Shown: piece after piece, positions 2,585 through 14,867 of the stretch
Position numbering within the stretch: position 1 is the stretch's first letter
How the letters are laid out: each line of letters begins with the position of its first letter
IMG/VR virus record: IMGVR_UViG_3300012920_000139
Coordinates: 1 to 32,262 of that record
Reading direction: 5' to 3' (one strand)
Source: a virus
Length of the DNA: 32,262 nucleotides
The notes under the pieces: model-generated
Seen by the model: the letters and a program-made list of their open reading frames with translations, nothing else
Told to the model about the DNA's origin: nothing
Database searches by the model: none
Made by a program: the position numbers and the translations under genes

Positions 2585-2787
2585 CGCCGAAACCGGCGAG
2601 CGATATGCGCAGCCAAGCGAACGACGGCGCGGGTAAAATCGAACGGGTTCAGGGGCTCATTGATACGCTCGGCGAGGTCGACACCCCGAAGCGCGGCGAG
2701 TTCAACATCAGTGATCGAAGGGCGCGGCGGGTCTAATGTGACCGGCTTGAGATCGTAGCACGTCGGGTACTTGTCAGTAACGCACAT
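2581..2787 (-). CDS. Small hypothetical protein in early leftward operon
   Basis: The frame is open from 2817, but the best start is ATG at 2787, which overlaps the upstream repressor-like stop as TAATG, with a GGGGG tract about nine bases upstream. ATG at 2793 is an alternative. The product has about 68 residues: two N-terminal cysteines, a proline-rich centre, and a basic helical C-terminus ending AHIARRFRR. No known family was recognised. Its stop overlaps the start of the membrane miniprotein (ATGA), so the four minus-strand genes look like one translationally coupled operon running from the HTH gene to the RecT-like gene. Confidence 0.6.
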   Translation of the reverse strand: MCVTDKYPTCYDLKPVTLDPPRPSITDVELAALRGVDLAERINEPLNPFDFTRAVVRLAAHIARRFRR

Positions 2788-3212
2788 TACCATGCCCCCG
2801 TATTCCGTATAACGCAACCCTCGTACACGACAAACGGCGTCTCTTTCGCAAGTAGTCGAATCAATAACTTTTTAAGCTTAGGATTGTTTGAGAATCGGCT
2901 TGTCAACTCCTCAACCGAGAGCGGGCGAGTCTCTGCGAATGCTATACTAGTCACGTTAAAACATAACGTCGGTTCAAGCGCGAGAGTCAAATCGATGTCG
3001 CTGTTAAAATCCGATGCCGTGAAACGCTCACTTTCTACGCCGTATTCAGCGCACAATTGGTTTATTGTATTAGCGAGATCTACAGCGCGATATTCAGGCG
3101 CGGTGAGTCGACCGTTTAACACGCCGTAAATATATTGCGGTGATACCTGCGCTCTCTCGGCGACCGTTCGCACTGTAAGCGCTTTTATCACCTTTTGCTT
3201 TTCTTCGTTCAT
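2787..3212 (-). CDS. HTH repressor-like regulator (Cro/CI-type)
   Basis: ATG at 3212 is preferred over the longer frame because AAAGGGG lies just upstream and the protein then begins MNEEKQK. The 141-residue product has a helix-turn-helix near residues 12-35 (VRTVAERAQVSPQYIYGVLNG), the usual DNA-binding fold of phage repressors and Cro proteins. The remaining part may serve dimerisation and has no recognisable LexA-like Ser-Lys protease motif. It is first in the leftward operon and divergent from the replication operon. The dyad between them (3254-3282) is its most likely operator. No integrase is visible, so lysogeny cannot be concluded. Confidence 0.7.
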   Translation of the reverse strand: MNEEKQKVIKALTVRTVAERAQVSPQYIYGVLNGRLTAPEYRAVDLANTINQLCAEYGVESERFTASDFNSDIDLTLALEPTLCFNVTSIAFAETRPLSVEELTSRFSNNPKLKKLLIRLLAKETPFVVYEGCVIRNTGAW

Positions 3213-3314
3213 CTTTGCCCCTTTCGCGGGTTTGTAAAAAAATGTGAGTACACCTTGACACATGTTTAAAAGTCATGTCAAGTAGAAAGTGAAAGTTTTC
3301 AAAAGGGGTTTTAA
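3213..3314. promoter_or_regulatory. Divergent control region with dyad operator candidate
   Basis: This 102-bp gap separates the leftward repressor-like operon from the rightward replication operon. It holds an inverted repeat, CTTGACA (3254-3260) and TGTCAAG (3276-3282), separated by 15 bp, so each strand carries a TTGACA box like a -35 element. No good -10 box sits at the standard distance on either strand, so exact promoters are uncertain. AAAAGGGG before 3315 is a strong ribosome binding site. The layout suggests an autoregulated switch. Confidence 0.55.
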
Positions 3315-3893
3315 ATGAATGAGCATGAAGTAAGAATCGCAGCTTATGGTTTGAAGTTGTCGCCGGCGGTCAAACTCGTCTTGATTGGCATCATTTCGCG
3401 CGTGAACTGGAAATCGTGGACCGGTGAGATTTCTTTTCGAGATCTTGCGCAGCGCATGAACGTCTCGGCAAGCTCGGTTCGATCCGCGCTCAAAAAACTA
3501 AATGAGGCGGGTTTGATCGCGATCAAACACAATACAACGACGACTACAAACGGTAAGAATATTTTTAAACGCTCGACGGTCATCGTAAACGTTGAATCAA
3601 TCGTAGGTGTATCGCGGATTGATACACCCCCTGTATCGAGGATTGATACACCCCCTGTATCGAGGATTGATACACCCCCTGTATCGCGGATTGATACACC
3701 CCTGTATCAAAATACGGCACACCCTGTATCGCGGATTGATACACCCCCCCTGCCGCGGATTGATACACTTACAATAGAGGATAACAATTATACTACAATT
3801 AATAATTCAATTGAGGATCGACAACGCGAGCGAGCTGAGAGAGAGAAAAAAATGCGACTCGCTCAAAAACGCATGAAGAGAAGTTACAGATAG
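3315..3893 (+). CDS. Winged-helix replication initiator-like protein (lambda O-like layout)
   Basis: This 192-residue protein has a winged-helix N-terminus (about residues 15-75; SFRDLAQRMNVSASSVRSAL is the recognition segment). Residues 99-151 are repeats of VSRIDTPP, and the rest is a highly charged helix rich in Arg, Glu and Lys. The repeat DNA is itself a set of dyad iterons, followed by AT-rich DNA. The next gene encodes a DnaC-like helicase loader. This is the arrangement of lambda O and P, where O binds iterons within its own gene and its C-terminal part contacts the loader. ATG 3315 has AAAAGGGG upstream. The role is inferred from layout; the N-terminal domain could instead be a regulator. 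Confidence 0.65.
   Translation: MNEHEVRIAAYGLKLSPAVKLVLIGIISRVNWKSWTGEISFRDLAQRMNVSASSVRSALKKLNEAGLIAIKHNTTTTTNGKNIFKRSTVIVNVESIVGVSRIDTPPVSRIDTPPVSRIDTPPVSRIDTPLYQNTAHPVSRIDTPPLPRIDTLTIEDNNYTTINNSIEDRQRERAEREKKMRLAQKRMKRSYR
3608..3767. repeat. Dyad iterons, candidate replication origin
   Basis: TGTATC, a 7-bp centre (GCGGATT or GAGGATT) and GATACA form a hyphenated dyad. Full copies start at 3608, 3632, 3656, 3680 and 3725. Degenerate copies lie at 3703 (left arm kept) and 3751-3767 (right arm kept). The first four are exactly 24 bp apart, separated by C-rich spacers. Dyad iterons inside an initiator gene are typical initiator binding sites. Confidence 0.75.
3768..3822. other. AT-rich stretch beside iterons, candidate DNA unwinding element
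   Basis: Directly after the last iteron the sequence becomes strongly AT-rich (for example CAATTATACTACAATTAA near 3785-3802) before the GC-richer end of the gene. In lambda the origin iterons are likewise followed by an AT-rich segment that melts first. The call depends on the iterons being a true origin. Confidence 0.5.
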
Positions 3894-3902
3894 AGAAAAC
3901 TG

Positions 3903-4865
3903 ATGAGCAACGAAATGATATCACTGGCCGAAGCACTACCCCCAACGATCGACGATCATCTCAGCGAGTTAAAAAAAATCGCTCGGGCGAGGTCCGAAGC
4001 CGGAGGCAACCCCGCCCCAAGTTTCGGCGACTGGTCGCATCTTAATCACGAAAACCTTGAAGCTGAAAATTTTATCGAGCGCGGTGAAGTCACTTTAACG
4101 GCGTGTGACGTTCCGTTTTGCGGACGATGCCAAGAAGGATATTTCTTTAGTAGACCTAAACTCTCGCAAGCGTTCACCGCGCTAGAGTGTAAATATTGTG
4201 AGACGCCGCGTCGATTCATCGACCGACTTAATAAGATGAGACTACCCGCCGACGCGGTCGAAATGTCGTTTCATCGTTACGAATATGAATCTCAACATCA
4301 TTTTGATGCCATAAATCACATGAGGCGATGGATTCAACGCGACCCCGAAATCAAGCGGCCACCGGCGCTGTTCCTCTGCGGTTCATCTGGAAACGGCAAA
4401 TCTTCGGCGTTGTACTGTTTCGCACGTGAAGCTGCGTATCGTGATCGGTATCATCAAGAGGACCGGCGACGGCGGGCTCGTTACATTTCACACTCGGCGT
4501 TGATGAGCTCGATTCGCGCGTCGTTCTCCGACCGCAACGCGAAAGACCCGCTCAAGAACTGGCTAAACGGGGTCAACCTGCTACTCGTCGACGAGCTCGG
4601 CGGTATAGGGGGCAGCGCAAACCGCACAGGTTGGTGGATTGATCAATCCACGCAACTACTCGAACAGATCTATCGTCTTCATCGATCCGGTGAACTCGCC
4701 GTCGTGTTCACTTCTAACCTAGGGCCGCGGGGTTTACATCGCGCATTCGGCGAAAATGAAGCGGTCAAGAGTCGATTGAAGTACATGTTTCAACATTCTA
4801 CAGTAGAGATGTGCGGCCGTGATCGTCGCGTTGATGCCGATTGTGTCGGGCCTTGGTCCTTCTGA
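3903..4865 (+). CDS. DnaC/IstB-like helicase loader ATPase
   Basis: This 320-residue AAA+ ATPase probably loads the replicative helicase at the phage origin. Walker A is GSSGNGKSS (160-168), Walker B is LLLVDE ending at D230-E231, sensor 1 lies in VFTSNLG (269-275), and R291 in RLKYMF fits the arginine finger region. The N-terminal part has C73-X2-C76 and C96-X2-C99, with another Cys at 68, a probable zinc-binding module; such N-terminal domains often contact helicase or primase. It follows the initiator-like gene by nine bases, matching the lambda O-P pairing. DnaC-like loaders and IstB transposition ATPases look alike, but no transposase is present, so a replication role is favoured. Confidence 0.8.
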   Translation: MSNEMISLAEALPPTIDDHLSELKKIARARSEAGGNPAPSFGDWSHLNHENLEAENFIERGEVTLTACDVPFCGRCQEGYFFSRPKLSQAFTALECKYCETPRRFIDRLNKMRLPADAVEMSFHRYEYESQHHFDAINHMRRWIQRDPEIKRPPALFLCGSSGNGKSSALYCFAREAAYRDRYHQEDRRRRARYISHSALMSSIRASFSDRNAKDPLKNWLNGVNLLLVDELGGIGGSANRTGWWIDQSTQLLEQIYRLHRSGELAVVFTSNLGPRGLHRAFGENEAVKSRLKYMFQHSTVEMCGRDRRVDADCVGPWSF

Positions 4866-5899: not shown

Positions 5900-7306
5900 A
5901 TGAACATGATTAAACAACTTGATAACGAAGTCGCAGAGATGCACCGGCACGCGGGCGACCTCTTCGAAGATTTTTTTATTAAACTGGTGAAGAGCGAATT
6001 TGATGAAGACACCCGCAAAATCACCGATGTGAGAACATCGTTTGCCGATATGTCGACACCTTGTCGTGTATCTGTTGAGTTAAAAAGCCGTAAGTGGACG
6101 CGTGGGCACCCTTGTCTTACCCGATCTGATTTTCTTTATGAAAACAGTTTCAAGCAAATTCGGGCGGGGCTAGAGTTTGCAAGTCGCAGCGGTTCAAAAT
6201 ACGCATTTATCGTTGCCGTTCATGAGTTTGACAACGTTCAAAACTTACTATCATTAAAAAGCGATATGCGTAAGTTTCTGGCATCATATAAGTGCGTGCT
6301 CGTGCTTTTCGGTGACTGCGACGGCGTAACTTACCGTATTTATAACATGGTTGATCTGCTGACTAATTTAAATAATGAGTCATTCAGAGAGAAATTGACA
6401 GACGATCATTATGGCGAGATGAGATCGCTTGACGTCAAAGTCAACTTGGGTCTTGAGTTAGACCCAAATCGCTTGATTTGGAATGAAAAAAAATGGGCGC
6501 TTTACTTTAATCAAAACAATTTAAGTCAAGACTCAATTGTGTTTGACACTCAGCGATTATATCCATTCAGTGAGCTTATGTATGAGTCGGTTATGCTTGA
6601 AGGGTCGACTCGCCAACATGAACGAGGTTCAACCTATGGTTCTACCTTGGTTTCTGTTAAAAATCTTCAAGTATCAAAAACAACTAAACATGCGTTAAGT
6701 AAAAGTTTAAAAAGCGCCAATCTTAAATCTTATCGCATCCACGTATTAGAACCCGAAGCTCTTTTTGTTGCGTTAACGGTAATTCATCTTTGGTCAAAGT
6801 GTAAAAACGATCCACGGCGTCAAGAGGTTGAAGATTTACTACAGTCGAAAAATCATAAGTTACCCGTTAAAGTTTGGAATGTTGCAGCTAACTACAATGG
6901 GAGTTATCAATGGCTATGGCGACTTCATGAAATTTTAGAGTCAAATCACATCATCCAAAATTATCTTTTAATTGATCCGGTGACTTTTGATTATAAAGGT
7001 ATGCCTCACATAGAGTGGACTCATGAAGATCATGCGAACGCGATTTTAAAGCATTTAGACAACTTCGCCGAGGTCCAACCAGTCGCCGAGGTCCAACCAG
7101 TCGCCGAGGTCCAACCAGTCGCCGAGGCCCAACTGATCGCCGAGGTCCAACCAGTCGCCGAGGTCCAACCAGTCGCCGAGGCCCAACTGATCGCCGAGGT
7201 CCAACGTCTCAGGTTTGAACTTGGTAACGTACAAAAAGAGAACAGATACTTAAAAAGTGTAATCGAGGATTATAAACAATTCATTGGCGTCTATCATGAA
7301 CATTAA
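5900..7306 (+). CDS. Probable PD-(D/E)XK nuclease-like protein with AEVQPV repeat tail
   Basis: ATG 5900 is preferred to an in-frame TTG six bases earlier; the product is 468 residues. The N-terminal part looks like a restriction-endonuclease fold: a helix with acidic residues (GDLFEDFFIKLV, 19-30), D43 or D50, then VELKS with E60-L-K62 as E-x-K, followed by a Q-containing helix (SFKQIRAGLEFA) and a hydrophobic strand (KYAFIVAVH). The middle region is unrecognised. Residues about 390-436 are hexapeptide repeats (AEVQPV, AEAQLI), followed by a short coiled coil. Base composition is AT-richer than in the flanking genes, suggesting separate acquisition. It could be a defence, anti-defence or DNA-processing nuclease. 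The fold is inferred from motif order only. Confidence 0.5.
   Translation: MNMIKQLDNEVAEMHRHAGDLFEDFFIKLVKSEFDEDTRKITDVRTSFADMSTPCRVSVELKSRKWTRGHPCLTRSDFLYENSFKQIRAGLEFASRSGSKYAFIVAVHEFDNVQNLLSLKSDMRKFLASYKCVLVLFGDCDGVTYRIYNMVDLLTNLNNESFREKLTDDHYGEMRSLDVKVNLGLELDPNRLIWNEKKWALYFNQNNLSQDSIVFDTQRLYPFSELMYESVMLEGSTRQHERGSTYGSTLVSVKNLQVSKTTKHALSKSLKSANLKSYRIHVLEPEALFVALTVIHLWSKCKNDPRRQEVEDLLQSKNHKLPVKVWNVAANYNGSYQWLWRLHEILESNHIIQNYLLIDPVTFDYKGMPHIEWTHEDHANAILKHLDNFAEVQPVAEVQPVAEVQPVAEAQLIAEVQPVAEVQPVAEAQLIAEVQRLRFELGNVQKENRYLKSVIEDYKQFIGVYHEH
7067..7206 (+). repeat. 18-bp coding tandem repeat in nuclease-like gene
   Basis: Seven full 18-bp units lie at 7067-7192, plus a partial one. Type A is GCCGAGGTCCAACCAGTC and type B is GCCGAGGCCCAACTGATC, in the order A A A B A A B. 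The AAB block is thus itself duplicated, a sign of recent expansion. The frame is kept. Confidence 0.95.
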
Positions 7307-10078: not shown

Positions 10079-10864
10079 ATGCAGATCAAAACTCGCGAGC
10101 TCTCCATCGTTCTTCTTGACCTCATCGGCTCAACTCAATTCGTTCAACGTGTAGGTCACACGAAGGCGGCGGCGTGGTTGCAATATCACGACCGTTTGAC
10201 GCGCTCGCTAATGTTTAAATTCAGCGGCCGCGAGATCGACCGAAGCGACGGGTTTTTGATCTCGTTCGAGGAGACGATTAACGCGGTGAATTTTGCGCTT
10301 CATTATCAATCAACGATTCCAGACAAGACGCGGCTTAATACTCGAATCGGCATACACGTCGGCACGGTCGCAGAGGTTACACAACGCGAGCTCGATGTCA
10401 TGGTCGGCGCAAAGCCGGTTGAGCTCGAAGGCGTCGCTAAAAATCTCACAGCTCGCGTGATGTCGGTATGCGCCGCGGGTCAAGTGCTCCTCACGTCCGA
10501 AGCGTTCGCAGCGGTCAAAAATAAAACCAATCGCGACACCCCGCGACACACGCGATATGCACAAGTCGGCTTGTATAAATTTAAAGGCATCGCCGGCGCT
10601 CGCGTAATCTATGCCGTCGGGAGTAATATCAGATCACTGCAACCGCCGCCGAGCTCGGAGAAAGCAAAACGACTAGGCGGGCCATCGCGGATTAAAAGCC
10701 ACGCCCGCGACCGTCGGTTGATTGAGTGGTTTTGGTGGTCACTGCCTCGACTCGCGCTCATCAACGCGATTTACATCATTTACGTTTTATGGCCATATCT
10801 TTCGACACACTGGCCGCCGCTGCGGTTTGTCGTGATGATTGTGAAACGGGTGTTAAATGACTAA
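10079..10864 (+). CDS. Class III nucleotide cyclase with C-terminal membrane anchor
   Basis: Residues 5-165 match the class III adenylate/guanylate cyclase domain: VLLDLIGST with metal ligand D14, GREIDRSDGFLISF with second metal ligand D57, RIGIHVG (89-95), and a catalytic-type N122-x3-R126 in KNLTARV. These residues suggest an active enzyme making a cyclic nucleotide. The purine-selecting Lys usually four residues before the second Asp is Ile53, so the base used is uncertain. A linker of about 45 basic residues leads to a membrane span (about 224-243, LPRLALINAIYIIYVLWPYL) near the C-terminus. The stop overlaps the start of a two-TM gene. It lies between terL and portal, where no virion role is expected. 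Its base composition is like that of the phage. Confidence 0.8.
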   Translation: MQIKTRELSIVLLDLIGSTQFVQRVGHTKAAAWLQYHDRLTRSLMFKFSGREIDRSDGFLISFEETINAVNFALHYQSTIPDKTRLNTRIGIHVGTVAEVTQRELDVMVGAKPVELEGVAKNLTARVMSVCAAGQVLLTSEAFAAVKNKTNRDTPRHTRYAQVGLYKFKGIAGARVIYAVGSNIRSLQPPPSSEKAKRLGGPSRIKSHARDRRLIEWFWWSLPRLALINAIYIIYVLWPYLSTHWPPLRFVVMIVKRVLND

Positions 10865-12943: not shown

Positions 12944-14867
12944 ACGTAAACGAACACAGGCTCAAACGCCCGCGCCGAAGCGCGACCGAATAAAGGGCAG
13001 CGCAAAAAACCCGAAAGGCTCGGCGAGTGGATCGCGGGGCGGTATCGAGATCAGTGAGAAGGCGGTTAAGTCGCTCGAAAAAATGCGAGATGAGCACAAC
13101 GCCCGATTTACGAAGAAAAAGCGCCGCGTTGATCTCGGTATGTTGAAAGCCGTATTTAGAAGAGGGGCCGGCGCGTTCAGTGTATCTCATCGGCCTAACA
13201 TGAATCGAACACAATGGGCACTCGCTCGCGTTCGCACGTTCCTCAAACTCGTCGCCACGGGGCAACGTAAAAAGGCATACACGGGCGATCTTGATTTATT
13301 GCCGAAGGGCCACCCGCAACACGTCGAAAAACGAAGCGAACCGGCGAAATACTCTCATATAGATTTTACACCGCCGAAGGGCGTACAAGAGGCGGCGGCA
13401 CGCGCTTTAGAGGTTCGCGAGTCTAAACCCGCTTCTCAAAGAGGTATGACGCCCGTAGGCATCGCGCGAGCTCGCGATCTTAAAAACGGTCGTGAGTTAT
13501 CACCCGACACCGTGCGCCGTATGCTTGCATATTTCACTCGCCACGAATCCGACAAAGAGGGGGCGACGTGGTCGGATCAGGGCAAAGGGTGGCAAGCGTG
13601 GCATGGTTGGGGCGGGGATGCCGGTTTCGCTTTTGCTAGAAAGGTTGTCGGTCAAATGAACGCCGCAGACGAAAAGACTAATACACTCGCATATGGTGAA
13701 TCAACACAACTCAGCGCGCTTTATGAAGTGCCCGAGGGTTTAACGATTGGTAAGCCGTTTAAAACTTTGGGGCTCGGTCCTGTATCGTCTCGGCTCACCG
13801 GTGACGGCATCGGCAAAGAGGTCGATCGTGAGTTGCTCTCTGAATTATTGAGGGTCTATCGAGAGCGACGCGACCGCGACCCCGTAATCATCGATTGGCA
13901 ACACGCGACGAGTCCATATCAAAGCGGCCCGCCGGCACCGCCGGAGAGCGGTAACGCGCTCGGTTTAATCATTGATTTAGAGTTACGCGACGACGGGCTT
14001 TATGCTGTGCCCGCGTACAACGAGCGCGGTTTAAACGTAGTCAATAACGCGGGCGGTGTCCTCTGGTCATCGCCTGAATTTCTCACCGGTGACGTATTCG
14101 ACCGCAGCGGCGGCGAACGCATCGGAGCGGCTCAACTGTTGGCCGTCACACTTACCCCGCGGCCGGCGCAGTCTCACGACCAAATCGACCGCATTACCCT
14201 AAACGAGAGGTTAAACGACATGGATGACATGAGCGTTGATGAGCTGCGGGCAATGCTCGAAGCTAAAGACGAGATGGTCAAGCAACTTGAGGCTAAAATC
14301 AAAGAGATGAAGAGCGACTCTGAGGCGGCGATTAATAAAGCCGGCGAAGAAGACGACGACGATAAGAAGCGCAAGATGACCGAAGAAGAAGACGACGATA
14401 AGAAGCGCAAGATGACCGAAGAAGAAGACGACGATAAGAAGCGCAAGATGACCGACTATAAGCGCATGAGCGAGCAAGCATCGCCCGCGCTTCTCTCTGA
14501 AGTTCAAGCGCTTCGTGATTCAGTCGCAACGCTCAAAGCGGAACGCGATGCGATGCAACGCGACCAAGCGGTCAACGCGCTACTCTCCGAGGGTCGTATC
14601 GCGCCGGTTGATGCCGAAGTCGCGGGCAAGGCATTCGAGCTTCGTGAACTTCAACCGGAGTTTTGGCGACACTTCAGCGAGCGCACCGCGGTCGCGGTTC
14701 CTCTCGCCGAGGTCGGACACGGCGCGAGCGGTGCAGAGGTAAACAAGCAGACTCTCGACGCGCGTATCAAGCAAGTCGCGACCGAGAAATCGATTAGTTA
14801 TAGCGAGGCGCTCGGCGTCGTGCGTCTCGAAGATCCATCATTTTATAATCAAGCATTCGGGGGCTAA
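12936..14867 (+). CDS. Mu I-like prohead protease/scaffold with N-terminal extension
   Basis: This 643-residue protein has three parts. Residues 1-245 are a basic extension holding two motifs I know from separate phage proteins, FRRGAGAFSVSHRP (74-87) and SPDTVRRMLAYFTRHE (189-204) with WGGDAG (225-230). Residues about 265-425 resemble the Mu gpI protease: VIIDWQHA (317-324, H323 a candidate catalytic His), GLYAVPAYNERG and WSSPEF (377-382, S378 or S379 a candidate Ser). Residues 429-643 are a coiled-coil scaffold with acidic-basic repeats (471-506). The protease cuts scaffold and itself during capsid maturation. The long N-terminal fusion is unusual. Start 12936 overlaps the portal stop. Confidence 0.8.
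   Translation: MVKRKRTQAQTPAPKRDRIKGSAKNPKGSASGSRGGIEISEKAVKSLEKMRDEHNARFTKKKRRVDLGMLKAVFRRGAGAFSVSHRPNMNRTQWALARVRTFLKLVATGQRKKAYTGDLDLLPKGHPQHVEKRSEPAKYSHIDFTPPKGVQEAAARALEVRESKPASQRGMTPVGIARARDLKNGRELSPDTVRRMLAYFTRHESDKEGATWSDQGKGWQAWHGWGGDAGFAFARKVVGQMNAADEKTNTLAYGESTQLSALYEVPEGLTIGKPFKTLGLGPVSSRLTGDGIGKEVDRELLSELLRVYRERRDRDPVIIDWQHATSPYQSGPPAPPESGNALGLIIDLELRDDGLYAVPAYNERGLNVVNNAGGVLWSSPEFLTGDVFDRSGGERIGAAQLLAVTLTPRPAQSHDQIDRITLNERLNDMDDMSVDELRAMLEAKDEMVKQLEAKIKEMKSDSEAAINKAGEEDDDDKKRKMTEEEDDDKKRKMTEEEDDDKKRKMTDYKRMSEQASPALLSEVQALRDSVATLKAERDAMQRDQAVNALLSEGRIAPVDAEVAGKAFELRELQPEFWRHFSERTAVAVPLAEVGHGASGAEVNKQTLDARIKQVATEKSISYSEALGVVRLEDPSFYNQAFGG
14220..14867 (+). CDS. Internal in-frame scaffold protein (predicted)
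   Basis: Within the protease gene, ATG 14220 (MDDMSVDELRAMLEAKDEM) is preceded by GAGAGG at 14205-14210, nine bases upstream. Starting here gives a 215-residue product containing only the coiled-coil scaffold part. In Mu the scaffold gpZ is made from an internal start in gene I in the same way. The start falls just after the protease domain ends, which fits a separate scaffold made in excess. Internal translation is inferred from the ribosome binding site and the domain border. Confidence 0.6.
   Translation: MDDMSVDELRAMLEAKDEMVKQLEAKIKEMKSDSEAAINKAGEEDDDDKKRKMTEEEDDDKKRKMTEEEDDDKKRKMTDYKRMSEQASPALLSEVQALRDSVATLKAERDAMQRDQAVNALLSEGRIAPVDAEVAGKAFELRELQPEFWRHFSERTAVAVPLAEVGHGASGAEVNKQTLDARIKQVATEKSISYSEALGVVRLEDPSFYNQAFGG
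14346..14453 (+). repeat. Three 36-bp repeats in the scaffold
   Basis: Units at 14346, 14382 and 14418 encode (E/D)-rich then basic 12-mers, EEEDDDKKRKMT; the last two units are identical and the first differs at one codon. They form an alternating acid-base segment within the scaffold coiled coil. Confidence 0.95.

Follow-up and report, generated by a model that had tools for sequence, protein, structure and literature searches.

Phage lambda carries dyad iterons inside the gene for its initiator, O. An O dimer binds each iteron, and an AT-rich stretch is unwound (PMC6022878, PMC7466680). The annotated iterons of lambda O number four, follow one another at steps of 20, 24, and 23 bp, and fall in three reading frames. 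The gene 18 proteins of P22 and phage L are distantly O-like, and the coding region of each holds a repeat type of its own; the partner gene 12 encodes a DnaB-type helicase (PMC8022706). The intragenic-origin layout is already known from lambda, P22, and phage L.

A second group of comparable initiators carries an HTH_36-type winged helix. It includes those of phages BF10P2, BKO1-3, PD491P1, and FCV-1 (from Bacteroides, Parabacteroides, and Flavobacterium) and of a Eubacterium eligens plasmid, all annotated as hypothetical or HTH proteins. In the E. eligens plasmid, genes for a ZapE-type AAA+ ATPase and DnaB come next after the initiator.

The window described here (the whole stretch of viral DNA analyzed, 32,262 bp) contains an array of dyad iterons within a winged-helix gene. 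Judged by its sequence, this array is a candidate lambda-like intragenic replication origin bound by its own initiator, a reading to which we assign a probability of about 0.86; we infer that binding, unwinding, loading, and the start of replication take place there. As in lambda, the dyads lie inside the initiator gene, 20–24 bp apart and in several frames, and are followed by an AT-rich stretch and then by a helicase-recruiting gene. Unlike in lambda, the dyad is TGTATC-N7-GATACA, the 192-residue protein is outside PF04492 and has a short C-terminal helix only, its partner belongs to the DnaC-like AAA+ proteins, and next to the array stands an additional invariant 24-nt box. An earlier, sequence-only reading of this DNA had proposed the lambda O-ori-P layout with a different initiator, and the internal iterons, AT-rich stretch, and loader gene support it.

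P22 and phage L likewise have repeats inside the initiator coding region, but the repeat sequences are others and gene 12 is a DnaB-type helicase where the window has a DnaC-like loader. The HTH_36 comparison set shares a homologous winged helix with the window, and translations of its phage members suggest a mixed-frame repeat linker as well. It differs in its iterons (for example, TGTGGTG and GGTTGGA half-sites, by eye), which track different recognition helices, and in its longer proteins (217–304 residues) with longer C-terminal parts.

Table 1. Coordinates of the candidate origin and adjoining features in the window.
Feature	Position	Strand	Basis
Initiator gene (192 aa: winged-helix domain, linker encoded by the iterons, basic helix at the C terminus)	3315..3893	+	HTH_36, phrog_270, AlphaFold2 model
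Recognition-helix codons (residues 52-64, SASSVRSALKKLN)	3468..3506	+	AlphaFold2 helix; in relatives, covariation of homologous columns with iteron bases
Iteron 1, exact TGTATC-N7-GATACA	3608..3626		pattern scan
Iteron 2, exact	3632..3650		pattern scan
Iteron 3, exact	3656..3674		pattern scan
Iteron 4, exact	3680..3698		pattern scan
Iteron 5, partial (TGTATCAAAATACGGCACA), 2 mismatches, other frame (LYQNTAHP)	3703..3721		
Iteron 6, exact	3725..3743		pattern scan
Iteron 7, partial (CCTGCCGCGGATTGATACA), with an intact right arm	3749..3767		also found de novo by dyad finder
Candidate unwinding element, AT-rich (80% AT)	3763..3812		AT windows
24-nt box ACACTTACAATAGAGGATAACAAT (codes TLTIEDNN)	3765..3788		every base identical in four relatives
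C-terminal basic helix codons (residues 166-191)	3810..3887	+	AlphaFold2 model; kept in A1
DnaC-like AAA+ helicase loader gene	3903..4865	+	phrog_50, 1.2e-18; homologous ORF at same place in relatives

The initiator and its predicted structure

The initiator matches the Pfam profile HTH_36 (PF13730) with an E-value of 5.9e-8 and 32.8 bits, against a curated cut-off of 25, and phrog_270, "replication initiation protein", at 1.4e-9; "O-like" PHROG families also matched. PF04492 (Phage_rep_O), which lambda O itself matches at 6.4e-37, is absent among the best 25 of the 32 families listed for the window protein. One initiator with the TGTATC-N7-GATACA dyad, L049, does belong to PF04492.

An AlphaFold2 model built from a four-sequence alignment contains a winged helix (residues 3–101) with its recognition helix at 52–64, and a basic helix at 166–191. 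Residues 102–165, whose codons make up the array and the AT-rich DNA, have pLDDT below 50, and the array-encoded region is predicted to be disordered. Foldseek comparison of the model with predicted viral proteins returned mostly phage HTH proteins, with protein O of phage Min27 at rank 7 (E 2e-6), and comparison with solved structures returned general winged helices. A sequence search of solved structures gave chiefly generic wHTH regulators, every match being weak. Tblastn against annotated phages found no relative of the initiator or loader, GTDB genomes held no relative of the initiator, and a search of Bacteroidia-class genomes gave two weak matches.

The iteron array

The five full and two partial dyad copies previously described within a winged-helix gene are borne out by the pattern scan and the HTH_36 match. 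All seven copies lie inside the initiator ORF; beyond the five exact ones the 32,262-bp contig has no further exact copy, and a reversed-pattern control gave zero. The seven iterons (3608–3767) follow at steps of 24, 24, 24, 23, 22, and 24. The sequence-only reading had pointed to the 23-bp step from 3680 to 3703 and its change of frame, and this holds, with the refinement that a second odd step, of 22, follows. Because of these two steps the copy at 3703 loses the frame (LYQNTAHP versus VSRIDTPP), which is then regained.

The Val, Ser, Ile, and Asp codons of the array are each uniform throughout and are those carried by the dyad unit. When the same peptide was recoded synonymously according to the codon usage of the phage, 20,000 trials yielded a mean of 0.012 exact dyads and a maximum of 2, versus the 5 seen. 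The five exact dyads are not a product of chance, since such recodings almost never yield the dyad.

The AT-rich stretch and the loader gene

The claim that an AT-rich stretch and then a DnaC-like loader gene follow the array is confirmed (Table 1). The stretch is the best 50-bp AT window, at a level reached by 0.2% of windows; three other contig regions also reach it. The loader carries a P-loop (GSSGNGKS) and a Walker B motif (LLLVDE), and a homologous ORF occupies the same position in L005, L015, and L065. GC skew shows no switch at the array in this short contig, whose termini are not defined.

The wider HTH_36 family

A set of 67 non-redundant linkers was drawn from 80 homologues of the HTH_36 initiator A2 plus four window-type genes, and mostly represents another HTH_36 family than the window's. 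An out-of-frame repeat, mostly at an offset of 22 or 23, exceeds all 60 codon shuffles in 48 of these 67 initiators, and out-of-frame repeats go beyond shuffles in 16 of 28 initiators of a second set. A de novo dyad finder returned arrays with steps of mostly 20–25 bp in the wider family. The 50 bp past the last iteron average 83% AT, as against 62% over the remainder of the gene, and are higher in every case tested (58/58). Downstream ORFs of L075, L100, L103, and L144 contain AAA+ loader or helicase motifs (by eye).

Runs of at least four C or G lie between neighboring iterons in 50 of 62 linkers. Linkers contain 286 G/C tract starts versus 96 from codon shuffles, a count in which repeat copies are not independent. 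Such tracts occupy the window gap at 3627–3631 and the equivalent inter-iteron gaps, and occur in the linkers of L075–L154. They may be codons for Gly or Pro that work whatever the frame, or may act as a spacer in the DNA.

Covariation between recognition helix and iteron

Residues at helix positions 5 and 6 go with particular iterons: PT with TAAAG, QG with AAC, and QT with TCAAA. Among QG helices, the iteron is TAAAC when position 8 is I, M, or T, and mostly GCAAC when it is Q. Across 48 sequences less than 75% identical, mutual information peaks between helix position 6 and iteron position -2 (z 11.4) and between helix position 5 and iteron position -5 (z 10.7). Helix columns score above other columns (p 5e-4), with some non-helix columns scoring too, and phylogeny confounds these values, as related sequences are not independent. 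A stricter pairwise regression ranks the same helix residue first, at 0.291 versus a permutation threshold of 0.314 and so below it. The helix–iteron rule, fixed ahead of reading the linkers of the second set, proves correct in 4 of the 6 cases on which it could be tested (p 0.011; two truncated linkers excluded). The helix motif [NS][TS]-x-[RKQ], picked after the fact on a hand-picked list, occurs in 8 of 12 initiators with TGTATC iterons versus 1 of 47 others (p 2e-6). Since the half-sites change in step with the recognition helix, these sequence comparisons suggest that the initiator reads sites in its own gene.

For winged-helix phage initiators broadly, the balance tips slightly toward a general rule: the linker would be a frame-free array of the protein's own binding sites, usually separated by G/C tracts, with an iteron predicted by a few recognition-helix residues. 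The predicted pairs are PT with TAAAG, QG and I/M/T with TAAAC, QG and Q with GCAAC, QT with TCAAA, and N/S-T/S-x-R/K/Q with TATC.

The array could instead act as an operator or in copy control, with the initiator or a nearby Cro/CI-like repressor binding it, but it is the initiator's own helix that covaries with the iterons, and the AT-rich flank and adjoining loader gene suit an origin. Dyads of the TGTATC-N7-GATACA kind are typical of operators, and a repressor-like HTH gene lies at 2787–3218; yet the array sits about 290 bp inside coding sequence, and the intergenic DNA at 3219–3314 has another dyad (by eye) and no copy of the array's. A dyad scan of genome contigs found mainly alphaproteobacterial pairs resembling operators, and these many chromosomal pairs of the same dyad, seen at scan level, are in keeping with an operator. 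Weighed together, the evidence makes this explanation very unlikely, and the array may serve autoregulation besides replication. The intergenic dyad, at 3252–3282 between the repressor-like gene and the initiator, is an imperfect TTGACA-N15-TGTCAA and is perhaps an operator or a site of divergent promoters.

DNA and peptide conservation in relatives

A scan of viral contigs for two neighboring dyads returned 61 stretches; about 22 (counted by eye) are in initiator-like genes, and the remainder resemble operators or chance occurrences. The close relatives of the window are L005, L015, and L065, all found by DNA pattern, and an alignment search added none beyond these three. An exact search for SKFDT-type DNA patterns gave no match, nor did a peptide-repeat query, which was probably masked as low complexity.

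Dyad copies occur in mixed frames in the window, L006, L015, L017, L018, L023, L037, and L065. In the close relatives L015 and L065 the dyad is kept while peptide and frame alternate, the dyad of L065 being read as VSKPDTHP and as CINPRYTP. In L006 the dyad, or a degenerate form of it, is translated as VYQKTIQE and VSKTDT; in L037 it gives VSKIDT beside YQKLTQ, and in L018 VSASDT and CISEGYA. On the question posed earlier of whether the dyad is kept as the protein drifts, the homologues show the dyad staying while peptide and frame change; relatives that keep SRIDTPP and lose the dyad were looked for, and the opposite was found. The comparison favors conservation that acts on DNA rather than on the peptide.

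The box beside the array is identical at 24 of 24 bases in the window, L005, L015, and L065. In the same four genes, four-fold third positions of winged-helix codons are 35–50% identical, and invariant residues outside the box keep one codon in just 22%.

A repeat under selection for its peptide, a Pro-rich SRIDTPP linker, or one made by slippage duplication, with the DNA dyad incidental, is a shade less probable than an operator and is already largely refuted. Frame-shifted copies retain the dyad and lose the peptide, the recoding trials almost never create it, out-of-frame repeats mark the 48 wider-family initiators, and the peptide is predicted to be disordered, although the majority of the window's copies share a frame and are almost the same, and both the window and L005 score very high for in-frame repeats. 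As most window copies are in frame, recent tandem duplication accounts for part of the array. In a negative control, L053 (1412–1615), a 1208-residue protein has VSVSDTP repeats whose codons carry the same DNA dyad, showing that the dyad can arise from protein repeats.

Least probable of all is a partition (centromere-like) or recombination site: iteron arrays are also known in partition systems and a distant homologue on the Treponema plasmid pTRESU01 adjoins parAB-like genes, but the subset of window ORFs scanned gave no ParA/ParB or integrase match, and other relatives have an AAA+ loader or helicase gene adjacent or near.

A model for initiation and its implications

At an intragenic origin of this kind, the winged-helix domain (residues ~1–101) would bind each TGTATC-N7-GATACA dyad as a dimer. 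Seven sites 22–24 bp apart, or about two helical turns, would build a nucleoprotein complex that strains the adjoining AT-rich stretch, and the DnaC-like protein of the next gene would recruit the host's DnaB helicase to the melted region. The array-encoded peptide (VSRIDTPP and its variants) would form a disordered linker, free for that reason to take whichever sequence or frame the DNA sites dictate.

The open-access literature gave intragenic origins for lambdoid phages and no report of frame-free arrays or of a helix–iteron code. To our knowledge, and within the literature searched, what is new is the frame independence as quantified here, together with the invariant 24-nt box, the inter-iteron G/C tracts, and the apparent recognition code. 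The array would be a clean case of coding sequence shaped by DNA function, in which one motif persists across all three frames and the encoded protein tolerates the result. Since reader and sites share one gene, each metagenomic contig gives a matched protein–site pair, which opens both the winged-helix recognition code and uncultured-phage origins to testing with simple binding assays. If frame-free arrays and the helix code hold true, such origins could be located and matched to their initiators from sequence alone.

Other features of the contig

An ORF at 10079–10864 has a weak match to guanylate/adenylate cyclases (PF00211, E 0.0018, below the cut-off), which is unusual for a phage. In-frame tandem repeats occur in a RecT-like protein (1753–1866, 12-bp unit), an ORF of unknown function (7065–7205, 18-bp unit), and a Mu-like protease/scaffold ORF (14345–14455, 36-bp unit). 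Repeats of 135 bp at the contig end (31358–31602 and 32015–32262) resemble a repetitive tail-fiber gene that is cut off there.
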